The notes under the pieces are model-generated. The model had not been told where the DNA came from, did no database searches, and saw only the letters and a program-made list of their open reading frames with translations. DNA of 22,871 nt from a virus, in the IMG/VR virus record IMGVR_UViG_3300024520_000518, positions 1-22,871 of that record, one strand, 5' to 3'. Both the position numbers and the translations under genes were made by a program. Of this stretch, positions 4,721 through 14,199 are shown piece by piece (position 1 is the stretch's first letter; each line of letters opens with the position of its first letter).

Positions 4721-6289
4721 ATGAGCGAAATCAAAGTAAATAAAGTAAGTCCACAATCGGGTACTACTGTTACAGTAGGAGATAGTGGCGATACTGTATC
4801 AGTAAACGCAGACAAAATTGAAGTAAATAAAATCATTCCTGTTACTGGAACAGATACTACATTCGGAGATAGTCTTGATAATCTTTTAATTCCATCAGGG
4901 GCTAAAATAAAAGTCAACTCTAGTGGAGAAATAAAAGTTTTATCCGGTGGAAGTCTAACCGTTGATTGTGGAGCAACAATTACAAACAATGGAACCGCTG
5001 TTGGTCTAGGACGAACAGGGACTGTAAACTGGTGCACGACCGTAAAAACAGCAGGATTCACTGCAGCTAATGGAAGCGGATATTTCGTTAATACAACATC
5101 AGGAGGACTTACAGTCGCACTTCCAACTTCTCCAAGCGTTGGAGATATCATTGCATTAAAAGATTATGCGGAGACGTGGGATACTAATAATGTTACCTTA
5201 TGTAGAGCTGGATCTAATATTAATGGAAGTTCTAACAATGCAGCTTTATCCACAGAAGCTCAATCGGTGACGATGATTTATGTAGATGCAACCAAAGGTT
5301 GGCAAGATATACATGATTCAACGGCAAATGTGACAGGTGCTTCATATATTACTGCTACAGGTGGAAATGCAGTTGTAACATGTGGTAATTATAAAACACA
5401 TATTTTTACAGGAGATGGAACTTTTTGTGTGGCTTCACTCGCAAGTGCGGCTCCCCAAAACGCGGTTGAATATCTCGTAGTCGCTGGCGGCGGTGGAGGC
5501 GGAAAAAGTTATTCCGGAGGTGGCGGCGGAGGCGGATTCAGATATTTTTCAGCATGTAATACTTGCGGCAGTCCTTTAGTAGGACCTGCAGGAATAACAG
5601 TAACAGCATCCCCTTATTCAATTACAGTAGGTGCAGGAGGTCCTGGGAATATTAGTGATAGCCCAGTTCAAGCTCCTGGAGGAGTTTCAACTTTTGATAC
5701 AATAACGTCTGCCGGAGGTGGAGATGGTGGACAATACACCCCATCAGGTGACGACGCAGGAGATGGCGGATCAGGTGGTGGCGGAGGAAATCCAGCTACC
5801 TTTAGTCCGACTCCCGGTCCAGGTGGAACAGGAAATTATCCTGTTGTTAGTCCAGTTCAAGGAACTGATGGTGGAAGTGGAATCGCAACAACAGCTACAT
5901 CGAACCCTAATCACAGACAAGGTGGAGGTGGCGGCGGAGCTCAGACTTCAGGTCAAAATACAACAACCGGCACTTATGGTGGAATAGGTGGAGCCGGCTC
6001 ACAGATCCTCGATGGATTTATCGGTCCAACAGCTCCAACTTATGGAACTCCAGGACCAGTTTCATTAACTAGATATTTCTCAGGCGGTGGAGGCGGAGGA
6101 ATATATATTTCTGATGCGAACTGTACAGCAGGTGGCGCCGGCGGTGGAGGCACTGGCGGAAAATGCGACGCGACACCAGGTACACTAAGTAATAGTGGTG
6201 GTGGAGGCGGTGGAGGGTGTATAAGCCCATCCGGTCCAGGAGGAATAGGTAGTTCTGGGGTAGTAATGATTAGATATAGATATCAATAA
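4721..6289 (+). CDS. Glycine-rich tail fibre / adhesin
   Basis: This 522-residue protein probably forms a tail fibre or receptor-binding tip. The N-terminus carries two copies of an about 21-residue motif, beginning IKVNKVSP at residue 4 and IEVNKIIP at residue 33, each ending in GDS-x-D. The middle (about 130-200) holds a common fibre segment (VALPTSPSVGDIIALKDYA). From residue 251 (YLVVAGGGGGGK) to the C-terminus (SSGVVMIRYRYQ) it is an extreme glycine-rich domain with many Gly runs and PG/GP pairs. This fits phage glycine-rich adhesin domains in which polyglycine helices pack together. TAGGAA precedes the ATG. It stands four bases from the next gene and one gene upstream of the oxygenase block. 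Confidence 0.85.
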   Translation: MSEIKVNKVSPQSGTTVTVGDSGDTVSVNADKIEVNKIIPVTGTDTTFGDSLDNLLIPSGAKIKVNSSGEIKVLSGGSLTVDCGATITNNGTAVGLGRTGTVNWCTTVKTAGFTAANGSGYFVNTTSGGLTVALPTSPSVGDIIALKDYAETWDTNNVTLCRAGSNINGSSNNAALSTEAQSVTMIYVDATKGWQDIHDSTANVTGASYITATGGNAVVTCGNYKTHIFTGDGTFCVASLASAAPQNAVEYLVVAGGGGGGKSYSGGGGGGGFRYFSACNTCGSPLVGPAGITVTASPYSITVGAGGPGNISDSPVQAPGGVSTFDTITSAGGGDGGQYTPSGDDAGDGGSGGGGGNPATFSPTPGPGGTGNYPVVSPVQGTDGGSGIATTATSNPNHRQGGGGGGAQTSGQNTTTGTYGGIGGAGSQILDGFIGPTAPTYGTPGPVSLTRYFSGGGGGGIYISDANCTAGGAGGGGTGGKCDATPGTLSNSGGGGGGGCISPSGPGGIGSSGVVMIRYRYQ

Positions 6290-6292
6290 ATT

Positions 6293-6688
6293 ATGGCACA
6301 TTTTGCAAAATTAGGAATTAACAGTAAAGTTATCGCAGTTCATGTGGTATCCGATAAGAATTGTCAAAACGCTGATGGTGTTGAAGATGAAGAAATAGGT
6401 AGACAATTTTTAGAAAGAGTTCACCACTGGCCTTTATGGAAACAAACTTCTTGGAATACTGCTGGTGGAATTCATTCAACAGGCGGAACTCCTTTAAGAG
6501 GTACCTACGCAGGAATAGGTATGTACTATGATGAAGATAATGATATTTTCCACGCAAAACAACCTTATCCAAGTTGGACTTTAAATACTACAACGGCACA
6601 ATGGGAACCCCCAACACCTAACCCTAATGATGGGCTAGTTTATGATTGGAATGAATCTACTAAAGCTTGGGATCCAGTCATTGTTTAA
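6293..6688 (+). CDS. Conserved marine-phage tail-region protein (131 aa)
   Basis: The opening MAHFAKLGINSKVIAVHVV, then a Trp/His region (HHWPLWKQTSWNT), YAGIGMYYDEDNDIFHAKQP, YPSWTLNTTTAQWEPP and DGLVYDWNE form a pattern I know from cyanophage and other marine phage tail-fibre neighbourhoods, where it is usually listed as hypothetical. The repeated aromatic YPSW...W...Y.W spacing at the C-terminus suggests a small compact beta domain. Function is not established. It is the last gene before the oxygenase block, and its stop codon overlaps a terminator-like hairpin. Confidence 0.75.
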   Translation: MAHFAKLGINSKVIAVHVVSDKNCQNADGVEDEEIGRQFLERVHHWPLWKQTSWNTAGGIHSTGGTPLRGTYAGIGMYYDEDNDIFHAKQPYPSWTLNTTTAQWEPPTPNPNDGLVYDWNESTKAWDPVIV

Positions 6689-6753: not shown

Positions 6754-7305
6754 ATGAAGAAGAAAGTATTAAGTCAAATAGATTTATATTCCGGCCCAGT
6801 TGAATGTCCTAAGGGTTTTGAAATTAATCGGACTCAACTCAAAAATGATATTCTTCAATCTTATGCAACTGACAAACGCATCAGTACTAATTCTAAAGAC
6901 TATTCTTATTTAGATTATGTTAGTCCATATTCCCCACCATTAAATTGGTTCAAAGATTACATAAGAGATCATTTTAATGCTGACTATCGCAAGAACCTTA
7001 TTCCTAAGGCTCAGTGGGGTAATGTTTATAAACAGAACCAACAATCTTTTTTAAGAAATACCGTAGACCCTTTAAATTTAAGAGAGTCCGCTGATTATAC
7101 TCTTGTTTATGGGGTTGATGTAAGTGACCAATCCTGTGACATTGTTATAGAATATGATGCCAATCGCAGAGCTAACCGAACCTGGCATGAACCCATGAAA
7201 AATGATTTCTTTGTTATGTTCCCCAGTACACAAAAATATTTTATTACTTCGAATCAATCCAAACAACTTAATGTTCTTTTAACAATCACATATGATAGTA
7301 TTTAA
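6754..7305 (+). CDS. Putative degenerate 2OG-oxygenase-fold protein (no iron ligands)
   Basis: The chosen start at 6754 gives 183 residues. An upstream in-frame ATG at 6667 would add 29 residues encoded through the end of the previous gene, the hairpin and the promoter, so it is rejected. The C-terminal half resembles phage 2OG-FeII_Oxy_5-type proteins: WGNVYKQN (88-95), a strand-rich DYTLVYGVDVS (114-124) and DFFVMFPSTQKYFITSN (151-167), matching the usual W.N.y, SGvyY and lvlFPs..H pattern. The iron ligands are missing: the only histidines are H73 and H145, and K161/Y162 occupy the expected distal His site. If homologous it is probably catalytically dead, perhaps a partner or scaffold. It is the first gene of the block. 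Confidence 0.5.
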   Translation: MKKKVLSQIDLYSGPVECPKGFEINRTQLKNDILQSYATDKRISTNSKDYSYLDYVSPYSPPLNWFKDYIRDHFNADYRKNLIPKAQWGNVYKQNQQSFLRNTVDPLNLRESADYTLVYGVDVSDQSCDIVIEYDANRRANRTWHEPMKNDFFVMFPSTQKYFITSNQSKQLNVLLTITYDSI

Positions 7306-7307
7306 TT

Positions 7308-7964
7308 ATGCAGTGGCCCACTTTAGTTGTAGATAATTTTTTTACTGATCCCCAGGATATCGTGAAACTATCAACGAGATTAAAATATGTACCCTCTCCT
7401 GATAATTCATGGCCTGGTACAAGAACTTTGCCTCTCCATGAAGTAGATAACCAATTCTTTCTGTGGTCAACTCGAAAGATTATAGCTCTCCTTTATCCTA
7501 CTCAAATAATGAGTGATGAGGGGTTAAAGTGGAAAGCAAATCAATATTTTCAACGAGTGCCTTATAATGTCTATGGAGACGAAGGTTGGATACATAGAGA
7601 CACCAAGTATGAGTTCACCGTAATTATTTATTTAAGTGATCATCCTCAAAGTGGAACTTGTTTGTACGAAGGAAAATATTTTAATACTGACTCTGAATAT
7701 TTGGAGGAGAAAAAAAGATTTTATAAAGATTTAAAAGACCCCAAACGTATGGAAAAATATAGAGATAAATCTAATTCTAAATTTCGTAAAAAAATTGAAT
7801 TATTTTCTAATTTTAATAGACTAGTTTTATTTGATGGAAGTACCTGGCATGCGTCCAGAAATGCTGATAAAAGTAAGAGTGACAGGCTCACCTTAATTAC
7901 ATTTTTTGGTACTGTAACAGGTAAAGGTCTGCGGTATCCACTTCCTCAAATGAGGAGAATTTAG
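7308..7964 (+). CDS. DUF6445-like 2OG-Fe(II) oxygenase-fold protein
   Basis: This 218-residue protein opens with TLVVDNFFTDPQDIVKL, the usual start of the DUF6445 type (NFY-x-DP, then PGTRT at 36-40). It carries the metal triad of a double-stranded beta-helix oxygenase: H96-R97-D98 in GWIHRDTKYEF, followed by FTVIIYLS, and a distal H181 in LVLFDGSTWHAS. R193, 12 residues later in DRLTLITFF, is the expected 2-oxoglutarate-binding arginine. A Lys/Arg-rich insertion (about 130-162) separates the halves. It starts two bases after the previous stop with no visible Shine-Dalgarno, so translation is probably coupled. The substrate is unknown. Confidence 0.8.
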   Translation: MQWPTLVVDNFFTDPQDIVKLSTRLKYVPSPDNSWPGTRTLPLHEVDNQFFLWSTRKIIALLYPTQIMSDEGLKWKANQYFQRVPYNVYGDEGWIHRDTKYEFTVIIYLSDHPQSGTCLYEGKYFNTDSEYLEEKKRFYKDLKDPKRMEKYRDKSNSKFRKKIELFSNFNRLVLFDGSTWHASRNADKSKSDRLTLITFFGTVTGKGLRYPLPQMRRI

Positions 7965-7967
7965 ATT

Positions 7968-8612
7968 ATGAATTTAACACATCACTATTGGTATTTTCAA
8001 TCTGTCATTCCCCCTAGAATTTGTGATATGATTATACAATATGGGAAATCAGAAAAGAAAAAAGAAGTCATTGCCATTACTGGAAATCAAGGTCGAAATA
8101 GAAATTTAGATAAGAACCCTTTGACCAAAGATGAAATAAAAGATTTGAAAAAGAAAAGAGATTCTAATGTTGTGTGGATGAGTGACCCATGGCTTTACAA
8201 AGAAATTCACCCTTATGTTTATCGCGCTAACGCAAATTCAGGTTGGAATTTTGATTGGGATTGGTCCGAACCATGTCAATTTACTAAATATAAAAAAGGA
8301 CAATATTATGATTGGCATTTTGATGGCTGGGATAAAACTTATACTGAAAAGGGGCCAACTAAGGGAAAGATTAGAAAGCTCTCTATGACAGTAACTTTAT
8401 CAGATCCTAAGACATATAAAGGGGGAGAATTAGAATTTGATTTGAGAAAGAATGATCCGGATAAAGAATCACAGCCTATTGTATGTAAAGAAATTTTACC
8501 CAAAGGATCTGTTGTTGTGTTTCCAAGTTTTGTATGGCATAGAGTTAAACCCGTAACGAAAGGAGTAAGGTATAGTCTAGTAGTATGGCATCTAGGCTTT
8601 CCGTTTAAATAA
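7968..8612 (+). CDS. Prolyl 4-hydroxylase-type 2OG-Fe(II) oxygenase
   Basis: This 214-residue protein has the full set of motifs of the P4Hc / 2OG-FeII_Oxy_3 group. It starts HYWYFQSVIPPRICDMII, has H117-x-D119 in YDWHFDGWD, a core strand KLSMTVTLSDP and GGELEF, then a segment containing VVFPSFVWHRVKP with distal H191, and R201 in GVRYSLVVWHLG for 2-oxoglutarate. It closely resembles PKHD-type hydroxylases seen in cyanophages. Members hydroxylate peptidyl proline or other side chains, but this one's substrate is not known. GAGGAG at 7952-7957 serves the start. It is the most confidently catalytic member of the block. Confidence 0.9.
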   Translation: MNLTHHYWYFQSVIPPRICDMIIQYGKSEKKKEVIAITGNQGRNRNLDKNPLTKDEIKDLKKKRDSNVVWMSDPWLYKEIHPYVYRANANSGWNFDWDWSEPCQFTKYKKGQYYDWHFDGWDKTYTEKGPTKGKIRKLSMTVTLSDPKTYKGGELEFDLRKNDPDKESQPIVCKEILPKGSVVVFPSFVWHRVKPVTKGVRYSLVVWHLGFPFK

Positions 8613-8613
8613 T

Positions 8614-9327
8614 ATGGAAGGAAGCAATACTCACGTAAAGTTTAATAATGTGACCTATTTCGGTACTCCTGTTTGGACTGCCGACTGTCCTATGTTTGTT
8701 AAACCCATGTTAAAACTAACAGATCGATATTTAAAAAAATCGAGAAAAAAGAATTTACAAGCAGGAATTAAAGAGAGAGATAAATTATTCAAAGCCTCTC
8801 TAGGCGATTTTGCTTTGTCTAACCATTCCGAATCTTTTAATGCTGATCCTGCAGCTAAAGAGTTTGTTGAGTTTGCTGGTGCTAGAAGTTTTCAATTTTT
8901 AGATTGGTGTGGATTTGATTTAAGAAATCACAGTTTACATTTTACGGAATGTTGGGTTCAAGAATTTTCACACAAAGGAGGAGGTAATCATAATACTCAT
9001 ACACATTGGAATCAGCATGTCACAGGGTTTTTCTTTTTAAAAGCGAGTAAGCGAACTTCGATGCCTGTTTTACATGATCCCCGACCTGGAGCTCTGATGA
9101 CTAAGCTTCCTCAAAAAGATCCAAGTAAAATTAGTTTTGGTAATGAAGCGGTTCATTATAACGTTAAACCTGGAACAATGGTTATTATTCCTGGCTATAC
9201 TCCCCATCAATATCCTGTCGATATGGGATTAGAGCCTTTTCGATTTATTCATTGGAATATACAAGTTGTTCCATCCCATATATCTCGGGCAGATAGCATG
9301 AAAAAAGATGAACCTCCAAAAAAATAA
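8614..9327 (+). CDS. 2OG-FeII_Oxy_5-like oxygenase, His-rich active site
   Basis: This 237-residue protein matches the pattern of the 2OG-FeII_Oxy_5 group: ECWVQEFSHKGGG, then H129-T-H131 followed by WNQHVTGFFFLK, which aligns with the family's HiHpgawLSGvYY. HDPRPGA (154-160) and GTMVIIPGYTPHQYPV with distal H198 follow, then R210 in FRFIHWNIQ. The active-site loop is unusually histidine-dense (H126, H129, H131, H135). The N-terminal 100 residues are helical and basic. The start lies one base after the previous stop with no clear ribosome site. Its last 20 bases overlap the next gene, so those two are coupled. Substrate unknown. Confidence 0.75.
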   Translation: MEGSNTHVKFNNVTYFGTPVWTADCPMFVKPMLKLTDRYLKKSRKKNLQAGIKERDKLFKASLGDFALSNHSESFNADPAAKEFVEFAGARSFQFLDWCGFDLRNHSLHFTECWVQEFSHKGGGNHNTHTHWNQHVTGFFFLKASKRTSMPVLHDPRPGALMTKLPQKDPSKISFGNEAVHYNVKPGTMVIIPGYTPHQYPVDMGLEPFRFIHWNIQVVPSHISRADSMKKDEPPKK

Positions 9328-9964
9328 ATATTTTTCTACCCCACTAGGGAGAAGATTTCCTGCTGATGGATGGATAGAAACAAAATTAACTAGTGAGGCA
9401 ATGAAATATTTAAAAGAATGTATAAAGAGGAAATCATCTCAAAGTTATAATTCTAACTTAGCGGGTAACATTAGTCATTCATTTAAAATACAAGATAAAG
9501 ATAAGGTGTTTGGTAGGGATGTTTTACCACCCCTTATAGAAATGTATTTTAAAGAGTTTGGCCGACAGGTAGTCCCCAGTATATTAACCCGTAATTGTCC
9601 CTTTGTCCTAGACAATTTGTGGGTTAATTTTCAAAAAAAATATGAATTTAATCCTCCTCATACTCATAAGGGGATCTTTTCTTTTGTAATATGGGTGACC
9701 ATTCCAACTCATCATAAAAAAGAACATGCATTAAAATTTGCCAGCCATTCATACAGGGCTCAAGCCTCTGATTTTCAGTTTACCTATATAAGTTCTTTGG
9801 GAAGACTAGAACATTTTAGTTATCTGCTTTCTCCTAAAGATGAGGGAACTATGTTATTTTTTCCTGCTAAACTTACGCATCAAGTTTTTCCTTTTTACAC
9901 ATCGAATAAAACTAGGGTTAGTATCTCCGGTAACATTGTATTGGATCCGACTAAGCACAAATGA
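9308..9964 (+). CDS. 2OG-FeII_Oxy_5-like oxygenase with LAGNIS motif
   Basis: This 218-residue protein shows NLAGNISHSF (50-59), a segment I associate with a marine group of 2OG-FeII_Oxy_5 proteins. It continues with LWVNFQKKYEFNPPHTHKG, giving H118-x-H120, then FSFVIWVTIP, a GTMLFFPAKLTHQVFPF stretch with distal H191, and R203 in KTRVSISGNIVL. All elements occur in the expected order and spacing. It belongs to the same broad family as the preceding gene but is not a close copy. The ATG lies inside the end of the preceding gene (20-base overlap) and its TGA overlaps the next ATG. Substrate unknown. Confidence 0.8.
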   Translation: MNLQKNKYFSTPLGRRFPADGWIETKLTSEAMKYLKECIKRKSSQSYNSNLAGNISHSFKIQDKDKVFGRDVLPPLIEMYFKEFGRQVVPSILTRNCPFVLDNLWVNFQKKYEFNPPHTHKGIFSFVIWVTIPTHHKKEHALKFASHSYRAQASDFQFTYISSLGRLEHFSYLLSPKDEGTMLFFPAKLTHQVFPFYTSNKTRVSISGNIVLDPTKHK

Positions 9965-10626
9965 GCTTCAAAAAAAATAAATATATTGTAGTAAAAAAAG
10001 CAATCAGTCCTCAACTGGCAAAATTTATCACTCAATATTTTTCATTAAAAAGAAAAGTTTTTAGAACATTGCTGGATAAAAAATATCTTTCTCAGTTTAC
10101 GGAGGAATGGGGAACATGGGGTGACGATGTAGCAGCTACTTCCTATTGCCATTATTCCGATATAGCTATGGAAACTTTATTGACTTGGGTTCAACCCATC
10201 ATGGAAAAAGAGACAGGTTTCAAGTTACACCCCACCTATACTTATACAAGATTTTATCAAAAAGGAGACGAATTAGTAAGACATAAAGATCGGTTTAGTT
10301 GTGAAATATCCACTACGTTAAGATTAGGGGGAGATAAATGGCCCATCTATTTAAGTCCATATGAAAATGTTGGAAGAGTAGATGGAAAAAAACTAACAAA
10401 CCGGAGTGAGGCTAAAGGAGTAAGCATAGATTTAAATCTAGGGGATCTGTTGGTTTATTCTGGATGTGAATTGGAACACTGGAGAGAGCCTTTTCAAGGG
10501 GAGAGTTGTCTTCAAGTTTTTTTACACTATAATAAAGCTAATTCTAAAGAAGCAAAAGAAAATGAATTTGACACCCGTCCTCATTTAGGTCTTCCTGCTT
10601 GGTTTAAAAAGAGACTTTCATCTTAA
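9961..10626 (+). CDS. 2OG-Fe(II) oxygenase-like protein with altered co-substrate site
   Basis: This 221-residue protein has H108-K-D110 in YQKGDELVRHKDRF, followed by EISTTLRLGG, and a distal H173 in GDLLVYSGCELEHWREPF. The closing strand is CLQVFLHYN. In the four preceding enzymes an arginine sits 10-12 residues after the distal histidine; here that place holds Q185. R175, directly beside the histidine, may substitute, or the fold may bind a different co-substrate. I recall related marine phage proteins with the same HWR...QVFLHYN pattern, so this looks like a subfamily feature rather than decay. It starts in an ATGA overlap and is the last gene of the block. Confidence 0.75.
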   Translation: MSFKKNKYIVVKKAISPQLAKFITQYFSLKRKVFRTLLDKKYLSQFTEEWGTWGDDVAATSYCHYSDIAMETLLTWVQPIMEKETGFKLHPTYTYTRFYQKGDELVRHKDRFSCEISTTLRLGGDKWPIYLSPYENVGRVDGKKLTNRSEAKGVSIDLNLGDLLVYSGCELEHWREPFQGESCLQVFLHYNKANSKEAKENEFDTRPHLGLPAWFKKRLSS

Positions 10627-10661: not shown

Positions 10662-11045
10662 ATGTTATTTGGCGATTCAACATGGGCCGGAGCCGCATGG
10701 GCTTCCCAAGCTCTCGAAGTTACTTACACTAGTGTTACAGTTAACGTTACTAACGTACCGATTACGCTTGGGGTTAATGATGTATCAGTTCAGGTTAGTG
10801 TATATCCTGCTGTTACTAATGTTCCTGTTACGCTTACCGTTAATGATGTAACCGTCGTTGTACAAGTAGATGTAGATGTTACAGGAGTAAGCTTGAATGT
10901 CCTTCCAAATGATGTTACTGTGACGGGAAGTGCATTGGTTAATGCAACTCAAGTGCCAGTAACGTTAACGGTCAATGATGGCGCCGCTTATGGGTGGACA
11001 GAAGTCGACTCTTCAAATACAACAACTTGGATTAGGGTACATTAA
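10662..11045 (+). CDS. Beta-repeat virion protein with four 22-residue units
   Basis: This 127-residue protein opens MLFGDSTWAGAAWASQ, an entry I know from small marine phage tail proteins (G-x-S/T-x-W...). From residue 29 it consists of four 22-residue units built on V-T-x-VPVTLTVNDV, the last incomplete; the ND pair recurs at the same place in each. It ends in YGWTEVDSSNTTTWIRV. Valine makes up much of the repeat region, so a stacked-beta or fibrous fold is likely. The role is unknown; its place between the oxygenase block and the collar fibre suggests a tail component. AGGA at 10651-10654 is its ribosome site. Confidence 0.7.
   Translation: MLFGDSTWAGAAWASQALEVTYTSVTVNVTNVPITLGVNDVSVQVSVYPAVTNVPVTLTVNDVTVVVQVDVDVTGVSLNVLPNDVTVTGSALVNATQVPVTLTVNDGAAYGWTEVDSSNTTTWIRVH
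10746..10982 (+). repeat. Four in-frame 66-base direct repeats
   Basis: Units begin at 10746, 10812, 10878 and 10944, exactly 66 bases apart. Units 1, 2 and 4 share VPITL/VPVTL plus VND at protein level; unit 3 is more diverged (VSLNVLPND). At DNA level units 1 and 2 are the most alike. Divergence between copies argues that they are old and maintained at protein level rather than a recent slippage expansion. Confidence 0.85.
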
Positions 11046-12265
11046 TGGCATCGTCATATACAACAAATTTAGGAATTGAATCAATCACAACAGGAGAACA
11101 GTCAGGATCCTGGGGTACAACCAGTAATTATAACTGGAATATTATAGACAGAATTAGAGGCTACAAATCTGTAGCGATCACAGGAACCACTCATACTTTA
11201 TTAGTACAGGCCAGCTCTCCCGTCGATGGAGCTAGTCATACTGAAGATGGGAATTATCCTGTTATTAAATTTACAGGATCCTCTGGGGATCCTACCGTTA
11301 CCATTAGTCCGAATACGGCTAATACATCTTACATCTTTATTAATGGTACAGGAAATACCATTACCTTTACCCAAGGATCAGGAGGAAATGTTTCTTTACA
11401 AAATGGCAAAGCAGCTCAATTTTATTTTGATGGAGCAGGTTCTGGAGCTGCAGCAGTAAGAGGATTAGATAATTTAGAAATTGCTACTTTAGAATGCACA
11501 GGTAATGCTGCCGTGGATGGAACCTTAACGGTTACCGGAGCCACAACACTAAGTACTGTTTTAGGAATTGCAAGTGGGGGGACAGGTTTAACATCCTTTA
11601 CGGCTGGGGATTTAATGTATGCCACAGCTTCTACTACAATTGCTAAATTAGGAATTGGATCCGCAGGTCAATTTCTTAAAACCAATGCAGGGGCCACGGC
11701 ACCCGCGTGGTCAACCGAAACAGATTTATGTCCTGTGGGATCTATAATTATGTATGGAGCTGCAGCGGCACCAACCAATTGGGTATTATGTGATGGGTCC
11801 GCCATCAATCGAACAACTTACGCAGATTTATTTACAGCCATTGGTACTACTTACGGATCTGGAGATGGTTCTTTAACTTTTAATGTTCCCAATTTACAGG
11901 GAGTATTTCCTATCGGTTATGATGGAGGAAGTAGTTATGCACTAGCAGCAACAGGAGGAGCAACCACTGATACTCCAACATTGAGCGGAACAAATGCAGG
12001 TACAACTTTAACCTCTTCACAAATTCCTGCCCATACCCATGGAGGCGTGACAACTGGATGGCCTAGTGGATCATGGACCGGAGGAACGGGAGCAGTTCAA
12101 ACAGCTATTGATGCTTCAGGTTTAAGTGTAGCGAGTGGTTCAGTTAATTTAAGTTTAGAAAATACGGGAGGAGGCAGTTCGCATACCCACACTTGGACTG
12201 GAACTTCATCCGCTGTAGATACCATCCCTCCTTATTTAGTTGTTAATTATATTATTAAAACTTAA
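11045..12265 (+). CDS. Tail collar-domain fibre protein
   Basis: This 406-residue protein starts with a widespread fibre N-terminus (TNLGIESITTGEQSGSWG, from residue 7), which probably attaches to the virion. Near 176-222 it has the fibre linker ASGGTGLTSFTAGDLMYA, then LGIGSAGQFL. Residues 229-290 form a Phage Tail Collar domain (CPVGSIIMYGAAAAPTNW, CDGSAINRTTYADLF, VPNLQG). The C-terminal part contains H330-T-H332 and H380-T-H382, the His-x-His pairs that hold metal ions in trimeric short and long tail fibres, and closes with IPPYLVVNYIIKT. It overlaps the previous stop as TAATG. A host-recognition fibre is the likely role. Confidence 0.9.
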   Translation: MASSYTTNLGIESITTGEQSGSWGTTSNYNWNIIDRIRGYKSVAITGTTHTLLVQASSPVDGASHTEDGNYPVIKFTGSSGDPTVTISPNTANTSYIFINGTGNTITFTQGSGGNVSLQNGKAAQFYFDGAGSGAAAVRGLDNLEIATLECTGNAAVDGTLTVTGATTLSTVLGIASGGTGLTSFTAGDLMYATASTTIAKLGIGSAGQFLKTNAGATAPAWSTETDLCPVGSIIMYGAAAAPTNWVLCDGSAINRTTYADLFTAIGTTYGSGDGSLTFNVPNLQGVFPIGYDGGSSYALAATGGATTDTPTLSGTNAGTTLTSSQIPAHTHGGVTTGWPSGSWTGGTGAVQTAIDASGLSVASGSVNLSLENTGGGSSHTHTWTGTSSAVDTIPPYLVVNYIIKT

Positions 12266-12273
12266 GGAGTTTT

Positions 12274-14199
12274 ATGCCTTTAATACAGGTCCCTTTCAAA
12301 CCCGGAATAGATAAACAGCTCACGGAAACGGGAGCTCAAGGACGTTGGATTGATTCTGACAATGTACGTTTTCGTTATGGTCTTCCAGAAAAAATTGGAG
12401 GTTGGACTAAAGTTATAACGAGTGCATTGATTGGAGCTCCACGAGCTCAACAACCTTTTTCTTCTTTAGATTCTGAAAACTTTGATTTTATAGCCACCAA
12501 TAAAAAACAATACATCTATCAGAAAACAGATAACTCTGTTAATGATGTGAGTCCTCAACGATATGGAGCTTATGGAACTACAGCAGTAGCCAAAAGTTTA
12601 ACTTCAGCTTTTGATACTAATGCGACAACTGAGGTGACAGTGAATTGGACTTCTCATGGAGCAGGGGTAGGCGACTTTGTCACTTTTGCATCAGTAACCG
12701 CTCCCACAGGAGTGGGTTATGTGGATTCTGATTTTGAAAAAGAATTTGAAATTCAAACGGTGGCTACTAATAGTTTTACCATTACCATGGCTACAGCTGC
12801 TACAGGAACTATTTCAGGAAATGGATCTGCTACAGCTACCTTATCTATTGTAACCGGAGATGCTATTTCCGTGTTAGGATTTGGTTGGGGTGCAGGACTC
12901 TGGGGACAATCCACATGGGGAACAGCAAGACCTACAACGGTTGAAGTCGATGCGGTGAACTGGACAGCAGACATGTATGGAGAAGATGTTATTGCCTGTC
13001 GTTATCAAGGTGGACTTTATATTTGGGATACCAGTGTTAATAAAGCGAGTATGCTTCCTATGATTAATCTTCTAGATTATAATAGAAGTACTGGAGGTTT
13101 TAGTCGAGGGGTGAATGCGAGTAAGGTTCCTACTAAAAATGGAATTGCTTTAGTTTCAACTCCAGACAGACACTTATGTGTCTTTGGAACTGAAACTACA
13201 ATTGGAACTTCATCCACGTATGATCCTATGTTGATTCGTTTTTCGGATCAAGAAACAATTACCGATTTTGTTATTACTGCTGATAACACAGCAGGGTCCC
13301 AAAGACTTTCTGACGGAACTGAAATCAGAGCCGCAGTTAGATCGAAGGGACAAATCGTTGTATTGACTGATACCTCAGCTCATTCAATGCAATTTATTGG
13401 ACCACCCTACACGTTTGGCTTTCAACAACTTGGAAGACAATGTGGAGTGGTGGGCCAGCATGCAGCGGTTGATGTCGATGGAGTTGTCTATTGGATGAAC
13501 TCTGCAGGTGGATTTTTAGCTTTTGATGGAGCCGTTAAAACACTTCCATGTACGGTAGAGGATTATATTTTTAATGATATTCGTTTAGTTCCTGAAATTT
13601 ATACGGGAGTTAATGCGGATTTTAATGAAGTGAGTTGGTACTATCCAACAGCGGACTCCAATGAAATTAATCGAGTGGTGACTTTTAATTATTTAGAAAA
13701 TGTTTGGTCCGTGGGCACGTTAGCCAGAACAACCTGGGCAGATCAAGGAGCCTTTGATAGACCTTATGCGACAAGCTACGTGGTGGATGATACGAGCGCC
13801 TCTACTCCAACGGTGCAGGGAGTCACAGCGGGACGAGGTTATCTTTACGCTCAAGAAACAGGGAACAGTGACAATGGTTCTACCATGACAGCCAGTTTAA
13901 CTTCCGGAGATTTTACTTTAGATGGATCCGGAAATGATTTACTTTCCATGTCACGATTCATTCCAGATTTTAAAGCTTTAAGCGGTGACATTGATGTTAC
14001 AATTCAACTGAGAGATTATCCGGGTGATGCTAAAGCAGGTAGTCCTTTAGGTCCGTTTACCGTGGACTCAACAACAACGTATGTAAGTACCAGAGCGAGA
14101 GGAAGACAGGTCGCTTTAAAATTAAATAGTAGTGGAGTTAATGACAGTTGGAGATTTGGAACGTTTAGAGCTGGGATACAACCTAGCGGGAGAAGATAA
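12274..14199 (+). CDS. P22 gp10-like tail hub / DNA stabilisation protein
   Basis: This 641-residue protein most likely forms the hub below the connector. The N-terminal block (KPGIDKQLTETGAQGRW at 9-25, FRYGLPEKIGGW at 33-44) is typical of marine phage proteins annotated as packaged DNA stabilisation protein. Mid-region FGWGAGLWGQSTWGTARP is a hallmark of the same group. The pattern VGQHAAVDVDGVVYWMN, LAFDGAVK and the C-terminal RARGRQVALKLNSSG parallels the P22 gp10 order (ISN..., RRIGRIRKNVGFKL) and suits a beta-propeller. AAGGAG at 12264-12269 gives a strong start. Gene order gp4-like to gp10-like fits P22-type assembly, with fibre and oxygenase genes inserted between. The gp10 link is from memory. 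Confidence 0.75.
   Translation: MPLIQVPFKPGIDKQLTETGAQGRWIDSDNVRFRYGLPEKIGGWTKVITSALIGAPRAQQPFSSLDSENFDFIATNKKQYIYQKTDNSVNDVSPQRYGAYGTTAVAKSLTSAFDTNATTEVTVNWTSHGAGVGDFVTFASVTAPTGVGYVDSDFEKEFEIQTVATNSFTITMATAATGTISGNGSATATLSIVTGDAISVLGFGWGAGLWGQSTWGTARPTTVEVDAVNWTADMYGEDVIACRYQGGLYIWDTSVNKASMLPMINLLDYNRSTGGFSRGVNASKVPTKNGIALVSTPDRHLCVFGTETTIGTSSTYDPMLIRFSDQETITDFVITADNTAGSQRLSDGTEIRAAVRSKGQIVVLTDTSAHSMQFIGPPYTFGFQQLGRQCGVVGQHAAVDVDGVVYWMNSAGGFLAFDGAVKTLPCTVEDYIFNDIRLVPEIYTGVNADFNEVSWYYPTADSNEINRVVTFNYLENVWSVGTLARTTWADQGAFDRPYATSYVVDDTSASTPTVQGVTAGRGYLYAQETGNSDNGSTMTASLTSGDFTLDGSGNDLLSMSRFIPDFKALSGDIDVTIQLRDYPGDAKAGSPLGPFTVDSTTTYVSTRARGRQVALKLNSSGVNDSWRFGTFRAGIQPSGRR

Follow-up and report, generated by a model that had tools for sequence, protein, structure and literature searches.

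The window analysed here, one whole IMG/VR virus record (IMGVR_UViG_3300024520_000518; 22,871 bases) from a marine virus of bacteria, encodes between two tail-fibre genes a cassette of six tandem genes (g1 to g6) that we assign to the Fe(II)/2-oxoglutarate (2OG) oxygenase superfamily. Four of them belong to described oxygenase families, g6 is very probably a fifth oxygenase in spite of its public label of 'ferrochelatase', and g1 appears to be a homologue devoid of iron ligands. The direct results supporting this assignment are family membership (with a predicted fold in the case of g1), conservation of the ligands, conservation of gene order and adjacency to fibre genes.

An open reading frame (ORF) check of the window outlined six ORFs on the plus strand filling positions 6754-10626: g1 (6754-7305), g2 (7308-7964), g3 (7968-8612), g4 (8614-9327), g5 (9308-9964) and g6 (9961-10626). 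The gaps between g1/g2, g2/g3 and g3/g4 are of 2, 3 and 1 nucleotides (nt), and g4/g5 and g5/g6 overlap by 20 and 4 nt, in agreement with the tight coupling inside a virion gene cluster proposed in an initial annotation made from the sequence alone. Promoter-like and terminator-like signals in the window did not exceed those of shuffled sequence. The initial annotation had also held that these genes are not recent duplicates, and the comparison of all pairs is consistent with this: the most similar pair, g3/g4, presents 45 of 192 identical residues, and most other pairs yielded only trivial local matches. Pairwise hhalign comparisons among the six families returned low probabilities (at most 32%) because the alignments of close relatives were shallow, and they were replaced by profiles widened with cyanophage members and by leave-out tests.

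Family membership and iron sites of g2 to g5

Searches against Pfam identified matches above the curated cut-off for four of the six proteins, corroborating the family types anticipated from the sequence: DUF6445 for g2 (PF20043; 58.7 bits, 1.1e-15), 2OG-FeII_Oxy_3 for g3 (PF13640; 62.4 bits, 8.2e-17) and 2OG-FeII_Oxy_5 for both g4 (PF13759; 38.8 bits, 1.3e-9) and g5 (43 bits, 6.5e-11). A weak match of g2 to PF13640 (5e-4) fell below the cut-off. Among phage families, g3, a P4Hc/PKHD-type oxygenase, matched phrog_61 (1.2e-39), and g4 and g5 both matched phrog_81 (g5 at 3.7e-29). The closest solved relative of g3 is the PKHD-type hydroxylase PiuC (2.9e-7), and g4, of the 2OG-FeII_Oxy_5/TIGR02466 type, has a solved relative in 3bvc (3.7e-5).

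The conservation of the ligand triads was scored in family alignments encompassing 11 to 151 sequences. The residues H96/D98/H181/R193 of g2 are kept in 11/11 aligned sequences, H117/D119/H191/R201 of g3 are invariant across 151 sequences, H129/H131/H198/R210 of g4 are present at 99-100% in 151 sequences and H118/H120/H191/R203 of g5 at 100% in 79 sequences. Together with H108/D110/H173 of g6, also at 99-100%, all five triads read from the window at the outset are thus conserved in their families at 99-100%. In g2 to g5 the triad is accompanied by a conserved basic residue located about 10-12 positions after the distal His (R193, R201, R210 and R203). The iron site of g4 and g5 is an all-histidine H-x-H...H motif, not the 2-His-1-carboxylate arrangement, with a conserved Arg at +12 in both. 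The aligned solved relative 3bvc shows the same motif, indicating that it is normal for this family, and the all-histidine site makes 2OG dependence less certain for g4 and g5. Given these conserved ligands, Fe(II)-dependent catalysis is probable for all of g2 to g6.

Two phage family labels overlap with these proteins. For g2, the best-matching phage family is PHROG 1644, which bears the label 'minor coat protein', although g2 has the HxD...H...R pattern and the match to DUF6445; the label may denote a virion protein or be an error. Both g2 and g3 also match the phrog_274 profile, labelled 'DNA endonuclease V', and proteins annotated with this name inside oxygenase runs (L159:12698-13177, L300:4663-5172 and L303:598-1083) bear HTD/HVD...H motifs, typical of oxygenases. 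For that group of proteins within oxygenase runs, the 'DNA endonuclease V' label is probably wrong.

Evidence for an oxygenase-type g6

The g6 protein has no Pfam match and falls in PHROG 2954, labelled 'ferrochelatase' (4.3e-48). No match to a ferrochelatase was detected for g6 among the models of Pfam and NCBIfam or the solved structures of the PDB. In a set of 36 g6-family sequences, reaching down to 28% identity, which includes the 'ferrochelatases' of cyanophages and pelagimyoviruses (28-74% identical to g6), residues R97, H108, D110, H173 and R175 are invariant. Leave-out tests were performed at E<1e-3 with oxygenase superfamily profiles seeded with g3 or g5, from which every g6-family member had been excluded, and with 205 negatives; earlier iterative profiles, which could contain the tested families, were not used. 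These profiles recovered 37/46 (g3-seeded) and 31/46 (g5-seeded) members of the g6 family and 0/205 negatives. In addition, S-SCSM2R_301 is a natural fusion of a g6-like domain with a 2OG-FeII_Oxy_3 domain, and phrog_3531 spans both types. The HxD...H triad and the profile matches hence place g6 among the oxygenases, and we regard an oxygenase-type identity of the family as very probable on these sequence grounds. Genes of this family have been treated as ferrochelatase in two ecology papers (PMC9599517, PMC11561400), the one using them as heme/iron auxiliary genes, the other as markers of season.

In S-SCSM2R (L301:3980-8489), the g6/Oxy_3 fusion is followed by three glycosyltransferases, one of them of GT25 type, and a radical SAM maturase, a gene content that could mean that a protein or peptide is both hydroxylated and glycosylated.

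A predicted oxygenase fold without iron ligands in g1

The initial annotation had described g1 as a gene lacking ligands. This observation stands but was incomplete, as g1 is a ligand-less homologue with the same predicted fold. No Pfam match was found for g1, and a single-sequence fold (pLDDT 30) was replaced by an AlphaFold2 model based on an alignment of 60 relatives (pLDDT 90.7, pTM 0.87), in which the protein is predicted to adopt the double-stranded beta-helix, or jelly-roll, of oxygenases. With this model as query, Foldseek matched 331 chains of the PDB (E<=0.001). All 50 matches listed among these are either oxygenases of the Fe(II)/2OG type or the uncharacterised but related structures 3bvc and 2rg4, and the best include 3bvc, TlxI and PHD2 (E 5e-8 to 1e-5). 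A search of BFVD with the same model returned many cyanophage oxygenases. In a 140-member alignment of the g1 family no conserved His triad was found, and 134 members have a Tyr or Phe where the distal His would be (FPS-x-x-x-Y162). Leave-out profiles built without direct g1 relatives recovered 22/47 and 30/47 g1 members. An oxygenase-type fold in a family without ligands makes g1 look like a pseudo-oxygenase, and on the basis of the model it is best read as a conserved, catalytically dead homologue.

Conserved order of the cassette

IMG/VR was scanned with each of the six genes and annotated phage regions were added, yielding about 298 loci. Family profiles revealed the order g1-(g2)-g3-g4-(g5)-g6 in more than 150 IMG/VR contigs, with many runs ending at contig ends. 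The run types include g3-g4-g6 (n=61), g1-g3-g4-g6 (n=56) and g1-g3-g4-g5-g6 (n=23); the full six-gene form was found three times, some of these finds being the window itself or a near-identical contig. The variable member g2 is rare (14 ORFs among the fetched loci), and g5 is optional. Among members whose flanks allow the count, another cassette gene on the same strand lies within 2.5 kb for 46/46 g1, 61/61 g3, 58/58 g4, 55/55 g6 and 31/44 g5 genes. The genes are therefore clustered in related genomes, as anticipated, and in a conserved order. The survey drew on the loci closest to the window, and the pattern consequently denotes conservation within a broad related phage group and not independent origins. 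The cultured relatives are the pelagiphages HTVC023P and HTVC033P, both of which hold part of the cassette, and a structural protein of the window (12274-14199) matches HTVC023P at 43%.

The initial annotation had considered such a compact run unusual, and this view does not hold: beyond the contigs sharing the order, runs of 5 to 9 oxygenase genes are present in HTVC008M, Mosig, S-CREM1, S-SM1 and S-RSM4, including five-gene runs in HTVC008M and Mosig and nine annotated oxygenase-type genes in a row in S-CREM1 (SCREM1_72-80), and eight non-orthologous oxygenase genes co-locating with a 'ferrochelatase' have been reported in pelagiphages (PMC9599517). In a panel of 15 T4-like cyanophages from the set of Sullivan et al. 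(PMC3037559), oxygenase genes cluster beyond random placement (P<0.05) in 9 genomes, and the densest, S-RSM4, presents nine oxygenase matches in 6 kb. Once the intervening genes annotated as 'hypothetical', 'ferrochelatase' or 'DNA endonuclease V' are recognised, the oxygenases published as "nearby" form an unbroken run.

Association with tail-fibre genes

As the initial annotation had proposed, the cassette lies between fibre genes. Upstream, on the plus strand, is a tail-fibre-type gene (4721-6289) with a C-terminal Gly_rich_2 domain (PF21722; Pfam 55.1 bits), and downstream on the same strand is a fibre gene (11045-12265) with a Phage Tail Collar domain (PF07484; 9.4e-23). A short plus-strand gene (6293-6688) matching phrog_7759 (3e-36), possibly a fibre accessory or substrate, separates the former from g1. 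In 108 loci a Gly_rich_2 homologue precedes the cassette by no more than 4 kb, and in 159 a phrog_7759 homologue lies upstream, in most cases at most 100 nt away from the first oxygenase-type gene. Gly_rich_2 genes also adjoin the oxygenase runs of HTVC023P, HTVC033P, HTVC008M, Mosig, S-CREM1 and S-SM1, and lie within 5 kb of an oxygenase cluster in 5 of the 7 panel cyanomyoviruses that have both (P ~2e-4 under random placement), a panel that had not been picked for this pairing.

Members of phrog_7759 are shared among phages of SAR11, roseobacters, OM43 and cyanobacteria. The gene at 6293-6688 was also considered as a Pro-rich substrate of a prolyl hydroxylase, a candidacy that was dropped, only P91 and P107 being conserved above 90%. 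In S-CREM1 and S-RIM44, a tryptophan halogenase adjoins the oxygenase runs and Gly_rich_2 genes (L161:302-3268, L304:1-41), hinting at a shared modification locus.

Putative function and alternative explanations

The best explanation of these results, which we put forward tentatively, is that the oxygenases are made late and act as hydroxylases of the virion's fibre proteins, g1 being a partner without catalytic function. The cassette is encoded with the neighbouring tail-fibre genes and is probably made together with them. With regard to catalysis, substrate, complex formation and timing, we infer the following scheme. Each active enzyme would bind Fe(II) in a facial triad. Ahead of tail assembly or in its course, most would use 2OG and O2 to hydroxylate side chains of new virion proteins, for which the adjacent Gly_rich_2 fibre is the foremost candidate. 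The g1 protein might stabilise or aim an enzyme of the cassette, a part that TlxI plays for TlxJ in fungi. The enzymes could constitute a multi-step pathway on one substrate or form a physical complex, as the initial annotation had suggested. In a more ambitious version, which we deem distinctly unlikely, a multi-enzyme hydroxylation assembly organised by the dead oxygenase g1 would decorate Gly-rich tail fibres, as a form of oxidative adhesin maturation spread across different marine phage groups. The recurrent pairing with Gly_rich_2 favours hydroxylation of virion fibre proteins, though it does not demonstrate it. In the paper library searched, no paper joining phage, a glycine-rich tail fibre, hydroxylation and an oxygenase was found.

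Several observations weigh against this explanation. The leave-out scores were modest overall, and the proteins of the window itself performed weakly: g6 reached E 0.0033 and g1 E 0.026 with the g3-seeded profile, and neither was matched by the g5-seeded one. The Arg or Lys usually found 10-12 residues after the distal His is absent at that spacing in g6, and g4 and g5 have the HxH...H site, which leaves 2OG use unproven for all three, though likely for g4 and g5. The g6 homologue of S-P4 stands alone. Gly_rich_2 genes lie beyond the 5-kb limit in Syn9 (5.9 kb), in P-SSM2 (24 kb) and for one S-CREM1 copy (44 kb), and the genomes of the panel are related to each other. Furthermore, both gene types reside in the tail-fibre region, so that a common hot spot of insertion may account for their proximity.

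One rival is a role in host metabolism, as Sullivan et al. (PMC3037559) suggested in the case of cyanophages. The targets of the oxygenases would then be small molecules or the 2OG pool, affecting nitrogen signalling or energy, with the fibre region as just a permissive, late location. Oxygenase genes do occur singly around cyanophage genomes as well, but the conserved multi-gene order and the repeated pairing with Gly_rich_2 are at odds with this role, and draining one metabolite does not require five different enzymes plus a dead homologue; we consider it rather unlikely. Also unlikely is a modification of the host cell surface or host proteins with no role in the virion, such as changes to the envelope or to receptors that exclude competing phages. 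The relationship of g3 to PiuC and the glycosyltransferase genes near the oxygenases of HTVC027P and S-SCSM2R are compatible with such an activity, whereas the cassette sits within the structural gene block and no glycosyltransferase was found in the window. Modification or repair of nucleic acids by AlkB- or Tet-like enzymes appears improbable. In its favour, the g6 profile matched only Tet-like dioxygenases among PDB sequences, at a sub-threshold E of 0.28, and cyanophage oxygenases have been suggested to act in DNA repair (PMC3037559). Against it, the cassette is not close to replication genes in the window, and the similarities of g3, g4 and g5 are to the PKHD hydroxylase or TIGR02466 types. 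The published notion of oxygenases partnered by a true ferrochelatase in support of iron/heme metabolism, founded on how the g6 family is annotated and on its constant presence next to oxygenases (PMC9599517, PMC11561400), is scarcely credible in view of the missing Pfam, NCBIfam and PDB matches, the invariant oxygenase triad, the leave-out matches to oxygenases and the natural Oxy_3 fusion (phrog_3531, S-SCSM2R_301).

In ocean phages, oxygenase genes rank with the most common of those that lack an explanation; as many as 24 have been reported from a single genome, that of S-SCSM1 (PMC9602691). The reading of the g6 'ferrochelatase' as most likely another oxygenase and that of g1 as a pseudo-oxygenase are two corrections that ease this problem. 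If the fibre is the substrate, these genes would gain a concrete function, visible in the virions of cultured pelagiphages.

Comparison with known systems

The closest published arrangement is that of HTVC023P-type pelagiphages (PMC9599517; gp64-gp67), which present a g1-like, an Oxy_3, a g4-like and a g6-like gene in the same order as the window, likewise downstream of Gly_rich_2 fibres and of a gene resembling 6293-6688. The window has g2 and g5 in addition, and identity to the HTVC023P counterparts is only 44-52% for g1, g4 and g6. In the published description, the last gene is treated as a ferrochelatase and the oxygenases are described as close to each other but not contiguous. The runs of cyanomyoviruses and pelagimyoviruses (S-CREM1, S-SM1, S-RSM4, HTVC008M and Mosig) resemble the window in that divergent oxygenases stand in tandem, together with a member of the g6 family and a nearby Gly_rich_2 gene, but have other members, in another order and in other phage families, are often longer and in some cases lie near a tryptophan halogenase.

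For g4 and g5, the nearest described type is that of TIGR02466 and 3bvc, with which they have the HxH...H motif in common while scoring below the curated TIGR02466 cut-off; 3bvc is also the best PDB fold match of g1, in which the ligands are lost. Degenerate oxygenase-fold partners required by an active enzyme have been described in the fungal pairs TlxI-J and TlxA-C (PMC11880133), and TlxI and TlxC provide a precedent for a partner role of g1, not evidence of the same role. As in the TlxI-TlxJ heterodimer of fungal meroterpenoid synthesis, a degenerate oxygenase-fold protein is encoded beside active ones, and TlxI is among the closest folds to g1. The two differ in that TlxI lacks the 2OG-binding Arg and the lid loop, whereas the putative partner g1 lacks the iron ligands. 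Overall, clusters of this kind are common in ocean phages; the cassette described here is a new member of them, and two of its six families (g1 and g6) are hitherto unrecognised or misnamed in public annotation.

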